Positions 41,180-49,493 of a stretch of DNA of 64,000 nt are shown piece after piece. Where the stretch lies: NCBI GenBank assembly GCA_903859705.1, contig CAIONQ010000081.1, forward strand, positions 62,001 to 126,000, given 5' to 3'. The notes beneath the pieces were generated by a model that was not told the origin of the DNA, did not search any database, and saw only the letters and a list, made by a program, of their open reading frames with translations. The translations under genes and the position numbers were made by a program. The DNA is from an uncultured Chthonomonas sp. Lineage in GTDB: Bacteria > Armatimonadota > Chthonomonadetes > Chthonomonadales > Chthonomonadaceae. Numbering within the stretch: position 1 is the stretch's first letter; each line of letters begins with the position of its first letter.

Positions 41180-41992
41180 CTATTTCATCCGCCTGCGTGC
41201 TGCGAAACATGCCGTGCCAAAACACAGAAGCAAAACGGATGCCGAAGGCTCCGGAGTTCTGCCGCCCGGGTCTGGTGAAGTACCAGAACATCCACCACCT
41301 ATCGTATTTGAATCGAGCGTTACTGCTCCCGTGTGTGCCAAAAGCCTACCGCAAGGATCCGTGGCACCAGTATTCGCAGTTATGCTTGCAAATGCAAGAA
41401 CGTTTCCTTGAAAGCTGGTAGTGGTACCCAGCGTTGCGGAACTGCCTACCGCCCAGAAAACATTGCTTCCCGAAGCACCGTTCTCCAAGATTACCGATGA
41501 GCCAGAAGCCGTCGTAAGCGTACTGCCAATGATAAAATCGAACCGAGAATTGGCGTTACCAAGCGCATTGAGGGTGAGCGCACCTGTAAGCTGTGCTGAA
41601 CTGCTGAAGAAGTAGACTCCCGGTGTTAGGGTTAACCCACCCAGGTCCTGGCCAGTTAACGCCAGAGTAGCCCCCTCAGCGTTGATAGCGGTAAAGGCAG
41701 TAAACATATCAACCTGCGCCTGCGCGGCGGAAGCATCATTAGAATGCTGCGTTCCGCCGAGAATGATCCCCGGAGGAAAACCAGTGATTGCCGTTCCTGC
41801 ACTTACGCCAACGTTTCCTGTAATCACAGATGCGCCGGTATTTGTTACAGTGGAACCAGCGAGTACTCCATAGTTGGCGGCGGAGCCGAGAACCTGTGCC
41901 TGTGCAGTAATTCCCGTAACAGCGAGCGCAGCCATTACGATAACCGGGTTAGTAGCGGTGACAAATCGACCAATACGCGATGAGAGCTTCAA
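41180..41992 (-). CDS. DUF3494 (ice-binding-like) PEP-CTERM protein
   Basis: A 270-residue exported protein. TTG 41992 is the likely start, 7 nt after AGGAG. After a signal peptide (ending ITAQAQ) comes the ice-binding/DUF3494 beta-helix: VLGSAANYGVLAGSTVTNTG, TGNVGVSAGTAITGFPPGIILGG and LTPGVYFFSSSAQLTGALTLNA, a typical pattern for the family. A Ser/Pro/Gly linker and a PEP-CTERM tail (RTPEPSASVLLL, ARRRMK) end it. DUF3494 proteins bind ice or act as adhesins; many have no ice activity. Confidence 0.9.
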   Translation of the reverse strand: MKLSSRIGRFVTATNPVIVMAALAVTGITAQAQVLGSAANYGVLAGSTVTNTGASVITGNVGVSAGTAITGFPPGIILGGTQHSNDASAAQAQVDMFTAFTAINAEGATLALTGQDLGGLTLTPGVYFFSSSAQLTGALTLNALGNANSRFDFIIGSTLTTASGSSVILENGASGSNVFWAVGSSATLGTTTSFQGNVLAFASITANTGATDPCGRLLAHTGAVTLDSNTIGGGCSGTSPDPGGRTPEPSASVLLLCFGTACFAARRRMK

Positions 41993-42386
41993 GATGCTTC
42001 TCCTTTTCAAACAGATGACATGGCGTGAGAACCACAAACGTGCCTCACACCTGCCCATCACTGGAACATGCAATTGTTTCGGTCATATCGACACCGAATA
42101 GGAACGGCATCGGTTGAATGTAACTGTTGGATGCCCCAACCGGGTGTGAGCCCAAAACAAGTGGAAATGAGCACATGATCGCAACGTACCAGAGGTTGCA
42201 CATTCGGAAGCAAGACACAGCCAGAGGCATCAATGTTCCATTTAATATTCCCTGGGTTAGTTACCTAACATAACATGATCCACAACAGCACCAGCGATGC
42301 AATTAGAGGCTGCGGATTAAACCGCGGCCAGTTACCATACTCCCAAACCTATTGCGGCTGCAGGCGCCTCATGAATAGACCGTTGG
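41993..42386. other. Intergenic, nothing recognised
   Basis: About 390 nt between a PEP-CTERM gene start and the stop of the exporter gene. No coding or RNA signal is convincing. Confidence 0.4.
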
Positions 42387-43007
42387 TTAGCGCAACTGCC
42401 ATAACCCAAGGCTAATCATCATTATTCCAGATACCACCTGTGCATGGCGGCCCAAGTTAGTGGCATAAAAGTGAGCCCCAACGCCTTGCCCACTTAGCAG
42501 GCAGATTACGTTAAATATCACCGAGAGAGCCGCCATTTCAAATGGGTTGATATGAAGCACTCCCGCGCTCATTCCGCCGAAGATGTTGTTAACCGAAAGA
42601 GCAATCCCCAGCAATAAGGCTTCTTTCAGCTCGATAGTGCGCGAGCCATCTACATCCGCAGTCTCAGGATCTTTTAGCAGATCTACCGGTGATACTGCGC
42701 GATCTATAGGCACATCTCGGCCGGGTGCTGCAATGCCAGGCTTCTTGTGCATAAGTGGCAACAGTATCCATATGCCGGTAACGGAAAAGCTGATGGCACC
42801 AATGCCCCGTGCCACTGCTTCTGGCAGATAGGTAGAAACCTCGTTGCCAGCGGCAACGGCTCCCCACGTTATAGCCATCATAACCGCACATATACATAGA
42901 TGGGAAGCAACCCGAATGCGAATGCCGCCCAGGCCATAGATAACCCCCACCCCAAGACTATCCAGACTGGTAGAAATTGCTAGCACAAGTAGAGTTACTA
43001 TTTGCAT
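42387..43007 (-). CDS. MntP/YtaF-type membrane exporter
   Basis: A 206-residue protein with six predicted membrane spans. The first repeat has STSLDSLGVGVIYGLGGIRIR, typical of YtaF-type members of the MntP (DUF204) family; the second repeat has LLGIALSVNNIFGGMSAG, where Asn stands in the place of the usual Asp. MntP exports Mn(II); YtaF is a sporulation-associated relative of unknown substrate. The change in the second acidic site makes Mn export less certain. It shares a strand with the metal-ATPase group upstream, with gaps of 50-60 nt to its small neighbour. Confidence 0.8.
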   Translation of the reverse strand: MQIVTLLVLAISTSLDSLGVGVIYGLGGIRIRVASHLCICAVMMAITWGAVAAGNEVSTYLPEAVARGIGAISFSVTGIWILLPLMHKKPGIAAPGRDVPIDRAVSPVDLLKDPETADVDGSRTIELKEALLLGIALSVNNIFGGMSAGVLHINPFEMAALSVIFNVICLLSGQGVGAHFYATNLGRHAQVVSGIMMISLGLWQLR

Positions 43008-43064
43008 AGCGTCATTTGCACTCTCCGCAGACTAAAACAAACACTCTGGTTATTGCTTCCGGGC

Positions 43065-43247
43065 CTACCGTGAAACAGTGTCGATAGAGCGGCGTTCGGA
43101 GATGGCTTTAATCTCCTGATGCTGCCTCTCACGCTGCCTGTGTGCACGCTGCTGATTTTTGTGTGAAACCCAGGTAGCAACAGAAGCAACACCGGCAAGC
43201 ACAAGTGTTGCAATCTCTATCTCTACAACTAGAGAAATCGGATCCAT
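43065..43247 (-). CDS. Small single-span membrane protein
   Basis: A 60-residue protein; GGGAG lies 7 nt before the ATG at 43247. A hydrophobic N-terminal half (about 3-28: ISLVVEIEIATLVLAGVASVATW) is followed by a charged helical tail rich in Arg, Gln and Glu. No family is recognised. It lies between the YkvA gene and the MntP/YtaF-like gene on the same strand and may be part of that group. Confidence 0.65.
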   Translation of the reverse strand: MDPISLVVEIEIATLVLAGVASVATWVSHKNQQRAHRQRERQHQEIKAISERRSIDTVSR

Positions 43248-43287
43248 AGTAATTCTCCCTTACCACAAAACAATGCTGTGCATACTT

Positions 43288-43797
43288 TCAAACAGGCTGG
43301 CTACGCAGGCGCCCCGCAACCCTACGAGTCAATCCGCCTGCAACCTTGCCTGCAAAGGTAGCTTGCTTACCCATGCGTTTAACCATGGGCGCCTTTGCCT
43401 CAAGGGATATGTATGCTGCTGTGCTTCCATCATGCACGAGGCGTGTTAGTGTTTCAATATCTGCGTGCAGCTGCTCTGGGTGCAGCTTTACCGAGCTGTA
43501 CAACTTAGCAAGTACCGGGGCAGGACAGTGATTTATGGCCTGCCGAATGCTGAACATAAGCAGCATTATCCAATCTACCTGGCCAATAATTGGCACTACG
43601 TTCATAACAAAGTGAGCAGGAGAAAGTATGTACACCACGGTGGCATAGAGCCACGACCTGTGCATCAGCGGAATTGTTGGTTCAAACGCCAGCGCCCACG
43701 ATAACTTTACATATGCCGGCAGTCGCTTGCCGATTGGAACCAGTTGCGCTACAATCTGCCTGTAACTCGGCATCCGTACTATTGTGTTGCTCATCAT
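43288..43797 (-). CDS. DUF1232 (YkvA) protein
   Basis: A 169-residue protein. The DUF1232 core lies at about 25-80: LPAYVKLSWALAFEP, then the membrane-like YILSPAHFVMNVVPIIGQVDWIML. A helical, basic tail follows. Asp in the usual SPxD position is replaced by His. It overlaps the 3' end of the P-type ATPase gene by 116 nt in a different frame, so the true start or the ATPase stop may be misplaced. The function is unknown; these proteins are common in envelope and stress clusters. Confidence 0.8.
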   Translation of the reverse strand: MMSNTIVRMPSYRQIVAQLVPIGKRLPAYVKLSWALAFEPTIPLMHRSWLYATVVYILSPAHFVMNVVPIIGQVDWIMLLMFSIRQAINHCPAPVLAKLYSSVKLHPEQLHADIETLTRLVHDGSTAAYISLEAKAPMVKRMGKQATFAGKVAGGLTRRVAGRLRSQPV

Positions 43798-46147
43798 AAG
43801 TCTCTGCTTCTTTCACGCTGATTGCGGCGTTGTTTAGCTTTGATAACATCACCGGGGACTTCTCTTTTGGGAACATCGGCCTCAATGCATTTAAGCCTGT
43901 TATTACTGTGGTACCGTTATTGATCAGCGTTGATATCAGTGGGCTGGAAAGGCCCACCGCTGCGGCTGCGATGCCCACAACGGTGGGCGCGATTATGATA
44001 TCGACATTTTGCTTCAGTATTGCAATGGCTTTACGCGAAAGGTCGATAGCAAGGGGAAGGCCAAGTAGATCACCATCCAGCAATATCACATCTGCTGTTT
44101 CTTTCGCAACATCGGCTGCATCCCGTAAAGATATCGCAACATCGGCCCTCGTAAATGCCGGTGAGTCGTTTATACCATCACCAATTACGGCAACCTTAAA
44201 ACCTTCACTCTTTAGCTGATCAACAACATCTGCCTTTTGTTCGGGAAATGCATCCGCAATAATATCTGTAATCCCAAGTTGTTGGGCAATTGTTTCGGCC
44301 GCGCGGCGGTTATCGCCCGTTAGCATCACAATTCGCTTCACGCCCCTTTCCCTCAGGGCACATATTACTGCAGCACTTTCCTCTCGAGGCGGATCGGTGT
44401 ATGCAATGAGGCCTATTAACTGCCCATCCATCGCGCAGAACACCATGGAACTTGAGAGCGCGATACACCTCGCAACAATCGGAAGTGCTCCCTCCAACTC
44501 TATACCAAGCTCCTGCATGAACTTCTGGCTGCCAACGTTTAGTTTGTAACCTTGAACGGATGCTGAAACGCCTTTTCCCATAACGTATTCCATAGAATCA
44601 AGCCTGGGAATACTAAGGCCACGTGCAACTGCTGCCTCAACAACAGCCTTTGCTGCCGGATGTTTTAGGTTTGCCTCTGCAGATGCTGCCCATTGCAGCA
44701 CTTCGTCGCCAGTGTAGTCTCTTGTTGTTACCAGCACCTCTGTAACCACAGGCGATCCCATGGTTAACGTGCCTGTTTTATCAAATACAATTGCGTCTAC
44801 CTCGGCAAGGTTTTCCATGGCTTTACCGCCCTTTATAAAGATGCCCTGCTTGGCTGCACCCGTCATGGCGCTCAAAATTGTTGTTGGAGCAGATACCCGG
44901 ATGCCCGTAACAAAATCCAGTATCAAAATGGAAGCCATGCGCGATAGGTCGGCACTAAACAGTAAAACACCACCAGCCAGGGCAAAAATGGCAGGCACAA
45001 GCCTATCGCCCACTTTTGCTGCGTAGTTAGAAACCCGTGTATCGGATAGTGGAGCATTCTCTATCATTTCAACAACGCGTCCGGCACGCGTTTTTGAACC
45101 AATATGCTCAACCATTATCCTAATCTGGCCATCCACCACGGTGGTAAGAGCAAATACCGCATCACATTCCATCTTTACCACCGGCACAGATTCTCCCGTC
45201 AAGAGTTTCTGATCCACCAGTGCGCGCCCACCCACAACAATTCCATCAACGGGCACATGGTCACCAGGATAGGCAACAACAATATCTCCCGGCTGCAGGC
45301 TATCCAGAGGCACAGAAAGCATTGTGCCGTTGCACTCTACCCACGCAAATTGCCCGGCAGGAGACATCAGCTCAGAAATTGCCTTGCGCGATGTGCGCAT
45401 TGTCTTCATCCTGATGAGCTCGCCAAGGCCAATTAAGCCCGTCATGATTCCACCAGTGGTAAACTGCCCCAATGCTCCCAGCGTTATCAAGGCACCAATA
45501 TCAAGTTGTGCCACATTAAACCTTCGCTGCTTAATTCCCTCAAGAGCCCCAAGCGCAGTTGGCAAACTTGCCAGGGCGAGGGCACCAACTACCAGCACAA
45601 TAGGCAATCCACCAATCGCAGAAATAGCAATTGATATTGCGGGGAATAGCAGCGGATGAATACCCGGGCCGGACTCTTGAATGAGATCACTGCCCGTGGC
45701 TGGCACCGATGCCGAACTGAAACGCGGGTTATTACGATCTGGCGACGCGAGAGCGTGCAGAGCAGCCTTAAGAACATTACGAACGGTTGGAATAATGCCC
45801 GCTGGCCGGTGGGTTTCTGCATTGTAATGAACAACCACAAACCCACTCTCGGCCGATACCTCTACCTGCGTAACTCCCAGAACGCACTTTAGATGCTGTT
45901 CAAACTCACGAGCGAGCACTTCATTTCGGCGCAGGCGCGGCAGTTGCAAGCGCAATCGCCCGGGGAAGTGGTGCTTCACTAGCACCACACATGCAGGCTT
46001 TGATGCGCCAATTGAGCCCTCCGCATGCTGGCGCTGTTTTGTGGTTGCTATAAACTGCGTATTGTTAGAGCTTAAACGAGCTGTCACTATTACACTCTTT
46101 CCGAGATGTTTGGAACACGCGCCTGCAATTCGCCCCGCATCCAACAT
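43682..46147 (-). CDS. P1B-type metal ATPase lacking the CPC motif
   Basis: An 821-residue membrane pump. An N-terminal heavy-metal-associated-like domain (about 50-110: VKHHFPGRLRLQLPRLRR) precedes eight spans. TGES lies at 317-320, the phosphorylated Asp456 in DKTGTLT, HP at 496-497 (typical of P1B) and GDGINDSPA after it. In the sixth span the usual CPC/SPC position reads F-V-T (residues 412-414, before GIRVSAP), so metal coordination must differ. This resembles CtpC-like pumps linked to Mn. The ATG at 46147 lacks a ribosome site; a GTG at 46087 with GGAAAG is an alternative. The last about 55 residues are unusual. Confidence 0.85.
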   Translation of the reverse strand: MLDAGRIAGACSKHLGKSVIVTARLSSNNTQFIATTKQRQHAEGSIGASKPACVVLVKHHFPGRLRLQLPRLRRNEVLAREFEQHLKCVLGVTQVEVSAESGFVVVHYNAETHRPAGIIPTVRNVLKAALHALASPDRNNPRFSSASVPATGSDLIQESGPGIHPLLFPAISIAISAIGGLPIVLVVGALALASLPTALGALEGIKQRRFNVAQLDIGALITLGALGQFTTGGIMTGLIGLGELIRMKTMRTSRKAISELMSPAGQFAWVECNGTMLSVPLDSLQPGDIVVAYPGDHVPVDGIVVGGRALVDQKLLTGESVPVVKMECDAVFALTTVVDGQIRIMVEHIGSKTRAGRVVEMIENAPLSDTRVSNYAAKVGDRLVPAIFALAGGVLLFSADLSRMASILILDFVTGIRVSAPTTILSAMTGAAKQGIFIKGGKAMENLAEVDAIVFDKTGTLTMGSPVVTEVLVTTRDYTGDEVLQWAASAEANLKHPAAKAVVEAAVARGLSIPRLDSMEYVMGKGVSASVQGYKLNVGSQKFMQELGIELEGALPIVARCIALSSSMVFCAMDGQLIGLIAYTDPPREESAAVICALRERGVKRIVMLTGDNRRAAETIAQQLGITDIIADAFPEQKADVVDQLKSEGFKVAVIGDGINDSPAFTRADVAISLRDAADVAKETADVILLDGDLLGLPLAIDLSRKAIAILKQNVDIIIAPTVVGIAAAAVGLSSPLISTLINNGTTVITGLNALRPMFPKEKSPVMLSKLNNAAISVKEAETYDEQHNSTDAELQADCSATGSNRQATAGICKVIVGAGV

Positions 46148-46211
46148 TGCTATTCACGGCTGCCCGGGCCAATAGACAGAGTGATAGTTTCTTTTAGTCC
46201 ACCTACCTGAT

Positions 46212-47033
46212 CTAATGGTTAGGCGGAATAAAATCCGGGTCGCTGTCAAGTGCTGTCGCTACCGGCGGCATCGAGGAAGCAGCGCCATCAGCTGCCCCGT
46301 TTACCGGCACTCTAACAGGTGCCTTTTTTGCAGGCTTTGCGGGTGAGTTGCCGTTCTCTGAAGCAGCCATCTTCACACTCCGTACCCGCTTTGGCTTCAC
46401 AACTACCGGTATTTCTATAGCAATCGGCACGGCTTCTACAAATACGGGCACAAGCACTTCCGGTTCAATAATTACTGTAAAATCCAGCAAGTCTAACTCG
46501 TCTGCCAGCGTATTTTCTTTCTTGCTTGCGCTCTGTTCACGTTCGTAGCGGGCCTCTTCCATAGCATCCCGCATATCTTCACGAACATGAGTTGCTGCAT
46601 TGCGGGTGATATCCGCAATCTTCATAAAGCCTTTTGCTACGCCCTTCATTAGCTGCACAGATGCCCGTTGCCCAGCTTGCGTGCATTCTGCGTCTAAGTC
46701 CGCACACGTTGCTTCCATATCAAGATTGTTCGGATCTCCACCCGTAATGATGTTTTCAACTACCGTTAATGTAGGCGTGGACACCACATAATCCGCGTTC
46801 ATCTCATTTTGATCCAGCATCACATCGCATTGTGAGTCCATCGCCTCAAGCTCGATTGCCGCGGCTTCGCGAGCCTGATCGGCCCTGGCTTCAAGGATTG
46901 CATCATTGAGATCCTGGCGCAGATGGCTGGATGTTTCTGCCATTGCCAGATATCCCTTTGCCATTGCTTTCGTAACAGACTTGCGCCTTGCAGCGCCCGC
47001 ACCAATAAGCACGCCCAGTACCAGTAATTCCAT
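46212..47033 (-). CDS. DUF5132-like protein with two repeated helical motifs
   Basis: A 273-residue protein. Two similar segments, at about 22-52 (TKAMAKGYLAMAETSSHL, then a DLNDAILEAR end) and 127-166 (KGVAKGFMKIADITRNA, then a DMRDAMEEAR end), match the pattern of DUF5132-like partners of P-type ATPases, as I recall them. An acidic middle (CADLDAEC) and a basic Pro/Ala tail follow. It lies 64 nt upstream of the ATPase gene on the same strand and probably forms an operon with it. No ribosome site is clear. Confidence 0.6.
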   Translation of the reverse strand: MELLVLGVLIGAGAARRKSVTKAMAKGYLAMAETSSHLRQDLNDAILEARADQAREAAAIELEAMDSQCDVMLDQNEMNADYVVSTPTLTVVENIITGGDPNNLDMEATCADLDAECTQAGQRASVQLMKGVAKGFMKIADITRNAATHVREDMRDAMEEARYEREQSASKKENTLADELDLLDFTVIIEPEVLVPVFVEAVPIAIEIPVVVKPKRVRSVKMAASENGNSPAKPAKKAPVRVPVNGAADGAASSMPPVATALDSDPDFIPPNH

Positions 47034-47165: not shown

Positions 47166-48110
47166 TCAGAACGCGTGACAGCAGTTCCGCTCGAAGTGTG
47201 ACCATGCATCCACCGGCACAAAACCACATCGAGCATTCAGCGCCTCAACAGGTGCATTTTGGGCTGAGCAAAATGACTTGATGCACCGGTAACCATTCTC
47301 GTGGCCATAGCGAATTGAGCACTGTTTAAGTTGCGTTGCCACCCCTCGCCGTCGGTACTCTCGTTTCACACCGGTCAAACCCATGTAAAGGCTCGCATTG
47401 CCGTCGCCAATCATGCAGGTGTACCCAATGTAGTCACCGCGCCCATCAATTGCTACAAAGGCGGCATCCGCATCATAGGAGCTATCGCCAAGGTAACCTT
47501 CGGTAAACTCTTCATAATCAACAAGCGTGGAAGACATCGGGATGTCTTGCCGAATATATTTCACAAGGCTATAGAGCTTCCGATTTCTCTCCGGATCACC
47601 CTTAAGTCCAGCTACGGTATCAATTGCAATTTCTGCCACCGCTGTTGTGTCCGTCTTAACACTTTGCGGTGGATGTATTGCATCCAGATCTAAGCACCAT
47701 TCAACTATCTGCATTAGCGGCCGGTACTTCCGGTGCTCCAAAAATGCCATGCTCGCCACATCAGCAGTGCGCGCGGTGCACCTTATGGCAATTGGGTTTA
47801 ATGGCCCCAGTTGAGAAACTGCATGTGCATATAGCCGAGATCCTATGCCGCGCCCACCACAGCCCGGTTGCACAGCAACATTTACACTGAAGTTACCCAG
47901 TTGATACAGTGCAGGCGTCTGGCGGTACTCGCAATAACCTACAACTTCATCGGCTATAACTCCAACCCAGCGTTGCTGCCTGCAGTAATCTGGCAATGCA
48001 TCATCTTGAGCAGCAAGGCCACATGCTGCAAAGGTATGACCGGGATACACCATTGTGAGAATGCGTTCCAGATCGGAATAGTGATCAGGTGCAAACGCCA
48101 GGATTTTCAA
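47166..48110 (-). CDS. Double GNAT-domain acetyltransferase
   Basis: A 314-residue protein starting at TTG 48110, 10 nt after AGGAGAG. Two GNAT folds are present: the first with NVAVQPGCGGRGIGSRLY (acetyl-CoA loop) at about 75-95, the second with LTGVKREYRRRGVATQLKQ near 245-263. Such tandem GNAT proteins acetylate small amines or protein N-termini; substrate not known. It stands alone. Confidence 0.88.
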   Translation of the reverse strand: MKILAFAPDHYSDLERILTMVYPGHTFAACGLAAQDDALPDYCRQQRWVGVIADEVVGYCEYRQTPALYQLGNFSVNVAVQPGCGGRGIGSRLYAHAVSQLGPLNPIAIRCTARTADVASMAFLEHRKYRPLMQIVEWCLDLDAIHPPQSVKTDTTAVAEIAIDTVAGLKGDPERNRKLYSLVKYIRQDIPMSSTLVDYEEFTEGYLGDSSYDADAAFVAIDGRGDYIGYTCMIGDGNASLYMGLTGVKREYRRRGVATQLKQCSIRYGHENGYRCIKSFCSAQNAPVEALNARCGFVPVDAWSHFERNCCHAF

Positions 48111-48584: not shown

Positions 48585-49493
48585 ATGGATCGACTAAAAA
48601 ATGCCATCTTGATTGTAAATGCTGGTTCCAACCATGGGGCCCAGCAGTATGTTGCAGCAAAGAGCATGCTTGTGGCGTTGGGCCTGAGAGAGGCCTATGC
48701 ATGGCAGATGGACCGCACAGCGGACATCCAGGCGAAGGTGAGCGAGGCAATATCTGAGGGTGTAAAGCTTATTATTGTTGGTGGCGGGGATGGCACGCTT
48801 AATTCGGTTGTTAACCTGTTTGTTGGTACGCAGGCCGTTCTTGGGGTGCTGCCGCTTGGAACAGGAAACCAGTTTGTAAGGGATCTGGGTATAGAGCCTG
48901 CGCTGGAACCTGCGTGCAAAGTACTGATGGAAGGTAAGGTTTCCCACGTAGACCTTGGCACAGCCGGGAATGGTTTTTTCCTTAATATTGCCACAGTTGG
49001 GCTTACCACCCTTATTACAGAGGGGCTGGATGAAAGTGAAAAACGCAGACTGGGCCGTTTTGCCTACACCTATGCAATTGCTCGAGCAATGCTGCTTGTA
49101 CAACCATTCCGAGTAACGTTAACTATGCCAGAGGGCAGATGCAGTTTTAGGGCATTACAGGTGGTTGTTGGTAATGGACGGTTTCATGCTGGCCCATTTC
49201 CGGTAGGCACCGAAGCAACCATTGTTGATGGCAAACTTACGGCTTATGTGGTGGCTTCAAGAAGTAGGTGGGGGTTGGTATGGTGTGCCCTTCGTCTGCC
49301 AGGTGGGCATCAGGATACTCTGAACGAAGTTCACACTTTTACTACTACCGACATTTTGCTCGAGACAAAGAAGCCCATACGTATAACCGTAGATGGGGAT
49401 ATCAAATACAAAACACCCATGCACTTCGGCATAGCACGTCGCGCGCTAAGGGTTATGACACCGCAGGCATTTGCCCAGGAGACTGAAGGTTAG
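48585..49493 (+). CDS. Diacylglycerol kinase-family lipid kinase
   Basis: A 302-residue protein of the DagK/YegS/BmrU class; GAGAG precedes ATG 48585. The nucleotide-binding GGGDGT motif is near residues 66-71, followed by LGVLPLGTGNQFVRDL. The C-terminal all-beta domain ends with TVDGDIKYKTPMHFGI, again as in the family. It phosphorylates a lipid (diacylglycerol, sphingosine-like or other), probably at the inner membrane. No obvious partner gene. Confidence 0.9.
   Translation: MDRLKNAILIVNAGSNHGAQQYVAAKSMLVALGLREAYAWQMDRTADIQAKVSEAISEGVKLIIVGGGDGTLNSVVNLFVGTQAVLGVLPLGTGNQFVRDLGIEPALEPACKVLMEGKVSHVDLGTAGNGFFLNIATVGLTTLITEGLDESEKRRLGRFAYTYAIARAMLLVQPFRVTLTMPEGRCSFRALQVVVGNGRFHAGPFPVGTEATIVDGKLTAYVVASRSRWGLVWCALRLPGGHQDTLNEVHTFTTTDILLETKKPIRITVDGDIKYKTPMHFGIARRALRVMTPQAFAQETEG

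Follow-up and report, generated by a model that had tools for sequence, protein, structure and literature searches.

A cysteine-free P1B-type ATPase beside P1B-6 in a conserved five-gene cluster of an uncultured Chthonomonas

The window analysed here, a 64,000-nucleotide stretch of DNA from an uncultured Chthonomonas sp. (contig CAIONQ010000081.1), encodes an 821-aa P1B-type ATPase with no cysteine at its transmembrane transport site. Judging from the sequences compared, the protein is one of a Cys-free clade and no isolated oddity, and it is a variant beside P1B-6 rather than a member of that class. We incline, with modest confidence, to the view that it pumps cations at the expense of ATP and belongs to a Cys-free branch sister to P1B-6, and that its hard-ligand site would carry Mn2+ or Fe2+ out of the cytosol in company with a scaffold protein and a YtaF/MntP protein. 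The features concerned are given below in window coordinates, the congener being record L034, a Chthonomonas-like MAG of the Armatimonadota.

48585..49493, plus strand: YegS/diacylglycerol-kinase-like lipid kinase, divergent; also near the congener cluster and the Gloeothece cluster
47166..48110, minus strand: GNAT acetyltransferase, upstream on the same strand (domain match; conserved in the congener)
46212..47033, minus strand: membrane-anchored helical protein of 273 aa with two copies of an AKG(Y/F)...RxDxxDAxxEA unit (sequence)
43682..46147, minus strand: Cys-free P1B-type ATPase of 821 aa with an N-terminal HMA_2 domain (sequence, domain matches, congener)
45950..45961, minus strand: G63-R64-L65-R66, arginine-rich HMA_2 motif replacing CxxC (sequence, alignment)
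44897..44917, minus strand: TM4 signature D411-F-V-T414-G-I-R417, replacing the CPC region (alignment)
44762..44782, minus strand: DKTGTLT phosphorylation site, D456 (sequence)
43916..43921, minus strand: N743-N744, located in the last TM helix where P1B-6 pumps have HN (alignment)
43288..43797, minus strand: DUF1232/YkvA-like membrane protein of 169 aa, whose gene shares 116 nt with the end of the ATPase gene (Pfam, alignment)
43065..43247, minus strand: protein of 60 aa with one N-terminal TM helix and no family (88% identical in the congener)
42387..43007, minus strand: YtaF/MntP-family protein of 206 aa with D16 kept, Asn at the second site and a DxDxSxxI EF-hand-like loop between the halves (Pfam, TIGRFAM, alignment)

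Five of these genes, encoding the 273-aa protein, the ATPase, the DUF1232-like protein, the 60-aa protein and the YtaF/MntP protein, follow one another on the minus strand from 47033 to 42387 with spacings of 64, -116, 40 and 57 nt. Overlapping or tightly spaced as they are, they probably form an operon, which may begin with the GNAT gene. Every gene was found where the initial annotation had placed it, including the small membrane protein with its single helix. Promoter and terminator scans of the window remained at shuffle level, and an Rfam search of the window gave no match. Downstream of the cluster (41180-42073) lies a gene for a DUF3494-like protein with a C-terminal anchor, which we take to be of the ice-binding type; it is kept in the congener, where a YflT protein follows.

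The congener shows the five genes in an identical order, and both the TM4 motif and the 116-nt overlap are unchanged there. Records L008, L039 and L059 (genome G001) carry the same cluster as L034, and all were counted as one. In the contig search of genomes the congener was the only match, and in a search of the phylum at a strict threshold (291 genomes) the ATPase was found in the congener, with relatives in just three further genomes. Compared with L034 the ATPase is 75% identical (dN/dS 0.064), the 60-aa protein 88% (0.046) and the YtaF/MntP protein 67% (0.110), ratios of about 0.05-0.11 that come from a comparison in which dS is near saturation. By this measure the ATPase is under strong purifying selection. 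A misassembly or a pseudogene is ruled out by the conserved motif and the dN/dS, and chance or an assembly error is excluded, as a second species has these same five genes together with the motif. Conservation within the overlap is good for the DUF1232-like frame and poor for the ATPase tail, which fits a coupled pair. The cluster proposed at first is borne out by this recurrence, and parts of it recur independently in other genera.

The ATPase matches HMA_2 (PF19991, 8.4e-11), E1-E2_ATPase (1.9e-33) and Hydrolase (9.5e-32), as well as the heavy-metal P-type model TIGR01525 (4.4e-145; 484.7 bits, above the cut-off of 346.25). TGES (317), DKTGT (456), HP (496), TGDN (610) and GDGINDSPAF (656) are all present, in agreement with the earlier statement that DKTGTLT, TGES and the HP motif are intact. 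The start codon is uncertain, and the first ~50 residues lack conservation. Ten cysteines were counted (11, 53, 88, 272, 328, 561, 571, 596, 799 and 813), none of them in TM4.

In a residue-by-residue alignment F412-V413-T414 fall under the CPC of CopA structures, of E. coli CopA and of E. coli ZntA; the F-V-T reported in place of CPC is therefore genuine, and CPC, the TM4 trait of P1B-1 and P1B-2, is absent from the ATPase. Around it, D411, G415, R417 and P421 are invariant in the eight aligned clade members. In the N-terminal domain P-G-R-L-R-L stands at the place of the CxxC of metal-binding HMA domains, with G63 and R66 invariant across the same number of clade members. Hard O/N ligands would replace the CPC thiolates, most likely D411 and T414 of TM4 together with N743/N744 of TM6, and such a hard set would be suited to Mn2+ or Fe2+. 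D411 and R417 could also pair structurally rather than bind metal. An AlphaFold2 model made from two window-type sequences (pLDDT 33, pTM 0.23) was set aside.

The signature D-[FL]-x-[TS]-G-[IL]-R is common to seven relatives from Armatimonadota, Deinococcus, Gloeothece and Methylobacterium. The plasmid-borne relative from Deinococcus peraridilitoris (53% identity) reads LDFASGIRVSAPTT in TM4, that from Gloeothece (43%) LDFGTGIRVSVPTA and that from Methylobacterium ADLGTGIRMAAP; the relatives within the phylum read DFATG (G077) and DFGTG (G233 and G062). Genomes beyond the phylum were plasmids only, and the spread of the clade is a lower bound. Viral contigs yielded distant P-type ATPases only. 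Adjoining the Cys-free ATPases of the Armatimonadota genome G077 (L056:3334-4998) and of Gloeothece (L036:11429-12997) are dead P-type ATPase paralogues with HMA_2, which are without the A-domain TGES and have IFFSTNRF or VFAAKS at the place of DKTGT. They are presumed, from their sequences, to be pseudo-ATPase partners in two phyla.

With P3A-like pumps from the studied genome as the outgroup, a maximum-likelihood tree places the Cys-free clade (96/96) beside the DYSCA pumps of Vibrio, Azospirillum and Arcobacter as their sister group (99/97). All P1B-6 and Cys-free rows form a less well supported 12-row clade (89/79), and the whole P1B-6/CtpC-like group, which includes a CtpC-like Rhodococcus pump with CPC and a DUF1490 partner, stands at 100/99. 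CopA (P1B-1) and ZntA (P1B-2) fall in separate clades, and membership in either class is ruled out by the tree and the TM4 motif. The aligned proteins of Fusobacterium, Priestia, Vibrio, Azospirillum and Arcobacter have D-[YF]-[SI]-C-[AG]-[IL]-[KR] in TM4 and HN in TM6, and two Armatimonadota ATPases (L088 and L089) have DYSCG in TM4. An HN motif in TM6 has been given for P1B6 (PMC9374683); it is found in L037, L038, L045, L046 and L050, where the ATPase under study has NN. D411 and a basic residue at 417 are common to the five aligned P1B-6-type proteins and to L088/L089, and absent from CopA and ZntA. As for a metal motif of another known class, which the initial annotation had considered, the alignment with other P1B classes thus gave a partial match: the D and the basic residue agree with P1B-6, and the TM6 histidine and the single TM4 cysteine (D-[YF]-[SI]-C-[AG] as observed in the aligned sequences, DFVTG in the ATPase) are absent. 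Because of these two absences P1B-6 membership is not claimed, the features of that class being taken from secondary papers and from the sequences compared here. A stepwise loss from CPC through YSC to FVT is plausible. The altered specificity first suggested is likely for a CPC-free metal-pump homologue in a conserved cluster, and can now be refined to a Cys-free clade sister to P1B-6, where (D)YSC already replaces CPC.

The 273-aa protein had been called DUF5132-like. It matches neither Pfam DUF5132 (PF17195) nor any other Pfam family, and the likeness holds at the profile level: its G062 counterpart (L058) matches DUF5132 at 1.2e-11, and hhalign of the 273-aa group against the DUF5132 group gives 85% (E 5.8e-6), a match that is weak because both sides are charged helices. 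DUF6110, the P1B-6 partner, did not match the protein at E 1, and neither did DUF1490, for which a Rhodococcus control gave 2.6e-40. In Deinococcus (L035:7338-7661) and in G077 (L056:483-833) the gene immediately upstream of the ATPase encodes a counterpart with a single unit. P1B6 genes adjoin DUF6110 PacL-like genes, and PacL1 is needed for the membrane foci of CtpC, which it gathers there (PMC9374683). From its similar build we infer that the 273-aa protein is a scaffold of the DUF5132/PacL style; the duplicated helical protein would assemble the pumps in a membrane platform, by analogy with PacL1 and CtpC.

P1B-6 is listed as Fe(II) (PMC7558416), and FezB is described as a putative ferrous iron transporter (PMC10979944). 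The ATPase could be a true ferrosome pump, FezB-like and minus the P1B-6 cysteine, that supplies Fe(II) to an internal store with the help of the scaffold protein, and its sister position to the DYSCA pumps, its HMA_2 domain with the arginine motif and its companion membrane protein would all agree with this. Nevertheless we consider it unlikely, as the TM6 HN is lost, the companion is without a Pfam DUF6110 match, no DUF4405 cytochrome (FezC-like) was matched among the scanned cluster proteins, and the YtaF partner speaks for Mn at least as strongly as for Fe.

This 206-aa partner scores 45.5 bits with PF02659 (MntP; cut-off 24.4) and 148.5 bits with TIGR02840, just below the cut-off of 149.6, the similarity being whole-length. 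The Asn noticed earlier at its second acidic site is real, but it is not unusual for the family and occurs also in YtaF of Brevibacillus and Alicyclobacillus, so that it was dropped as a sign of special function. The DxDxSxxIxxxE EF-hand-like loop is kept in most aligned YtaF homologues and is possibly a Ca2+ or Mn2+ sensor. Among the ten HMA_2-bearing genomes of the phylum (the two congeners counted as one) four genera have an MntP-family gene, always one per genome, and in three of the four, namely at the studied locus and in G065 and G080, the gene adjoins an HMA_2 ATPase. In G065 a classical MntP lies beside a P1B-6 ATPase. In G080 a YtaF-like gene overlaps by 4 nt a P2-type HMA_2 ATPase, of another class than the Cys-free pump, with Nramp directly upstream; the three genes (L084:4475-9514), abutting or overlapping, are an apparent operon and possibly a manganese module. 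A rough estimate, with a 10-kb neighbourhood in a 5-Mb genome (~0.002 per gene), puts two of three by chance near 1e-5. Across 151 genomes of the phylum TIGR02840 matched only in the studied genome and G080, which suggests horizontal gain. No annotated MntP was found within 8 kb of the Deinococcus and Gloeothece clusters. G080 and G048 also encode P-type ATPases of ~1,615-1,638 aa (L085 and L086) with an N-terminal HMA_2 and PEGLP motifs, recalling mycobacterial CtpH/CtpI in size, and a small Cys-rich protein is encoded upstream of L086.

The cargo would most likely be Mn2+ or Fe2+ rather than Cu, Zn or Cd; taken together these two ions are the probable substrate, and the MntP/YtaF and Nramp neighbours lean to Mn. 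The initial annotation had left the choice between a metal and a non-metal, and for this part the repeated neighbours argue for Mn/Fe. A cargo that is not a transition metal or not a metal at all (Mg2+, Ca2+, K+, H+ or an organic cation), carried by a hard-ligand site unrelated to heavy metals, appears still less likely than a ferrosome role. It would suit the complete loss of TM4 thiols and the acidic and Asn residues found there, P2/P3-type pumps being known to use acidic and Asn ligands, but the HMA_2 domain, the position nested inside the P1B group, the repeated MntP/YtaF neighbours and the Nramp neighbour in G080 speak against it. That the protein has lost transport and now acts as an ATPase with a regulatory or structural part in a membrane platform is improbable, since every catalytic motif is kept and the TM4 and A-domain residues are invariant under purifying selection, even though the dead HMA_2 paralogues beside Cys-free ATPases in G077 and Gloeothece indicate that the group tolerates non-transport roles.

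For the preferred pump of Mn2+ or Fe2+ the direction would be outward from the cytosol, with the periplasm or a membrane compartment as the destination, because P1B pumps in general export from the cytosol. The YtaF/MntP protein would provide a second, non-ATP route for the same metal. For the 169-aa protein the earlier label of YkvA falls short in Pfam (DUF1232, PF06803; 19.2 bits against a cut-off of 23) and is supported by a relative, L087, which passes the cut-off and aligns at 1e-25; tblastn with the 169-aa protein gave no match in plasmids. The relative L087 adjoins an HMA_2 P2-type ATPase in G032, in a cluster (L087:3858-8838) that also holds HMA_2-type proteins, and proteins with DUF1232 may be partners of HMA_2 pumps in general. 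In Gloeothece (L036:14554-16056) a YegS-type lipid kinase is fused to a C-terminal HMA_2, a fusion that ties lipid phosphorylation to HMA_2 pumps; the kinase is unfused beside the window cluster and that of the congener.

A wider and more tentative proposal, which we regard as possible but doubtful, is that pumps with the signature above form a distinct P1B subclass lacking thiol ligands, with Mn2+ or Fe2+ as the cargo and a scaffolded membrane platform or organelle as the destination. This structure would be built by a modular set of HMA_2 components (scaffold, lipid kinase, dead ATPase and YtaF) spread horizontally over at least four phyla. Cysteine motifs in TM4 are commonly taken as the code of P1B specificity, and a clade with the whole engine and no thiol at the site, beside iron-organelle pumps, is a natural test of the choice between soft and hard metals. 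The sequence predicts a Mn/Fe-type site and names defined residues. Moreover the recurrent pairing of HMA_2 ATPases with MntP/YtaF suggests an unrecognised manganese or iron module, in a phylum, the Armatimonadota, that is little studied.

Among the known systems, P1B-6/FezB shares with the present ATPase the HMA_2 domain with its arginine motif, the D and basic residue of TM4, the intact P-type motifs, a neighbouring place in the tree and a small membrane-protein partner, whereas the Cys-free ATPases have no TM4 cysteine (FVT for YSC in the present one), NN, SH or SN for the TM6 HN, and other partner genes. The CtpC/PacL1 efflux platform (P1B6-like, DUF1490) is alike in its pump with an upstream membrane-anchored, Glu/Ala-rich helical partner and falls in the same larger clade (Rhodococcus L052). 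However, the CtpC type keeps CPC, and the partner at the studied locus is not DUF1490 but a tandem duplicate, in which no His/Asp metal-binding tail is obvious. CopA (P1B-1) and ZntA (P1B-2) share the overall architecture and the catalytic motifs and differ by the CPC that both have. The plasmid cluster of Gloeothece PCC 7822 (DUF5132, HMA2, YegS-HMA_2, DUF1269) has an extra dead HMA_2 ATPase paralogue and no annotated YtaF or YkvA within 8 kb, but resembles the present one in its Cys-free DFGTG ATPase, its scaffold-like gene, its YegS kinase and a general-stress-type protein nearby. Finally, the YtaF/MntP Mn2+ exporters are similar over their whole length to the 206-aa protein, itself a putative exporter, and share D16 with it, whereas the latter has Asn at the second acidic site, as some YtaF do, and lies in one probable operon with an HMA_2 ATPase.
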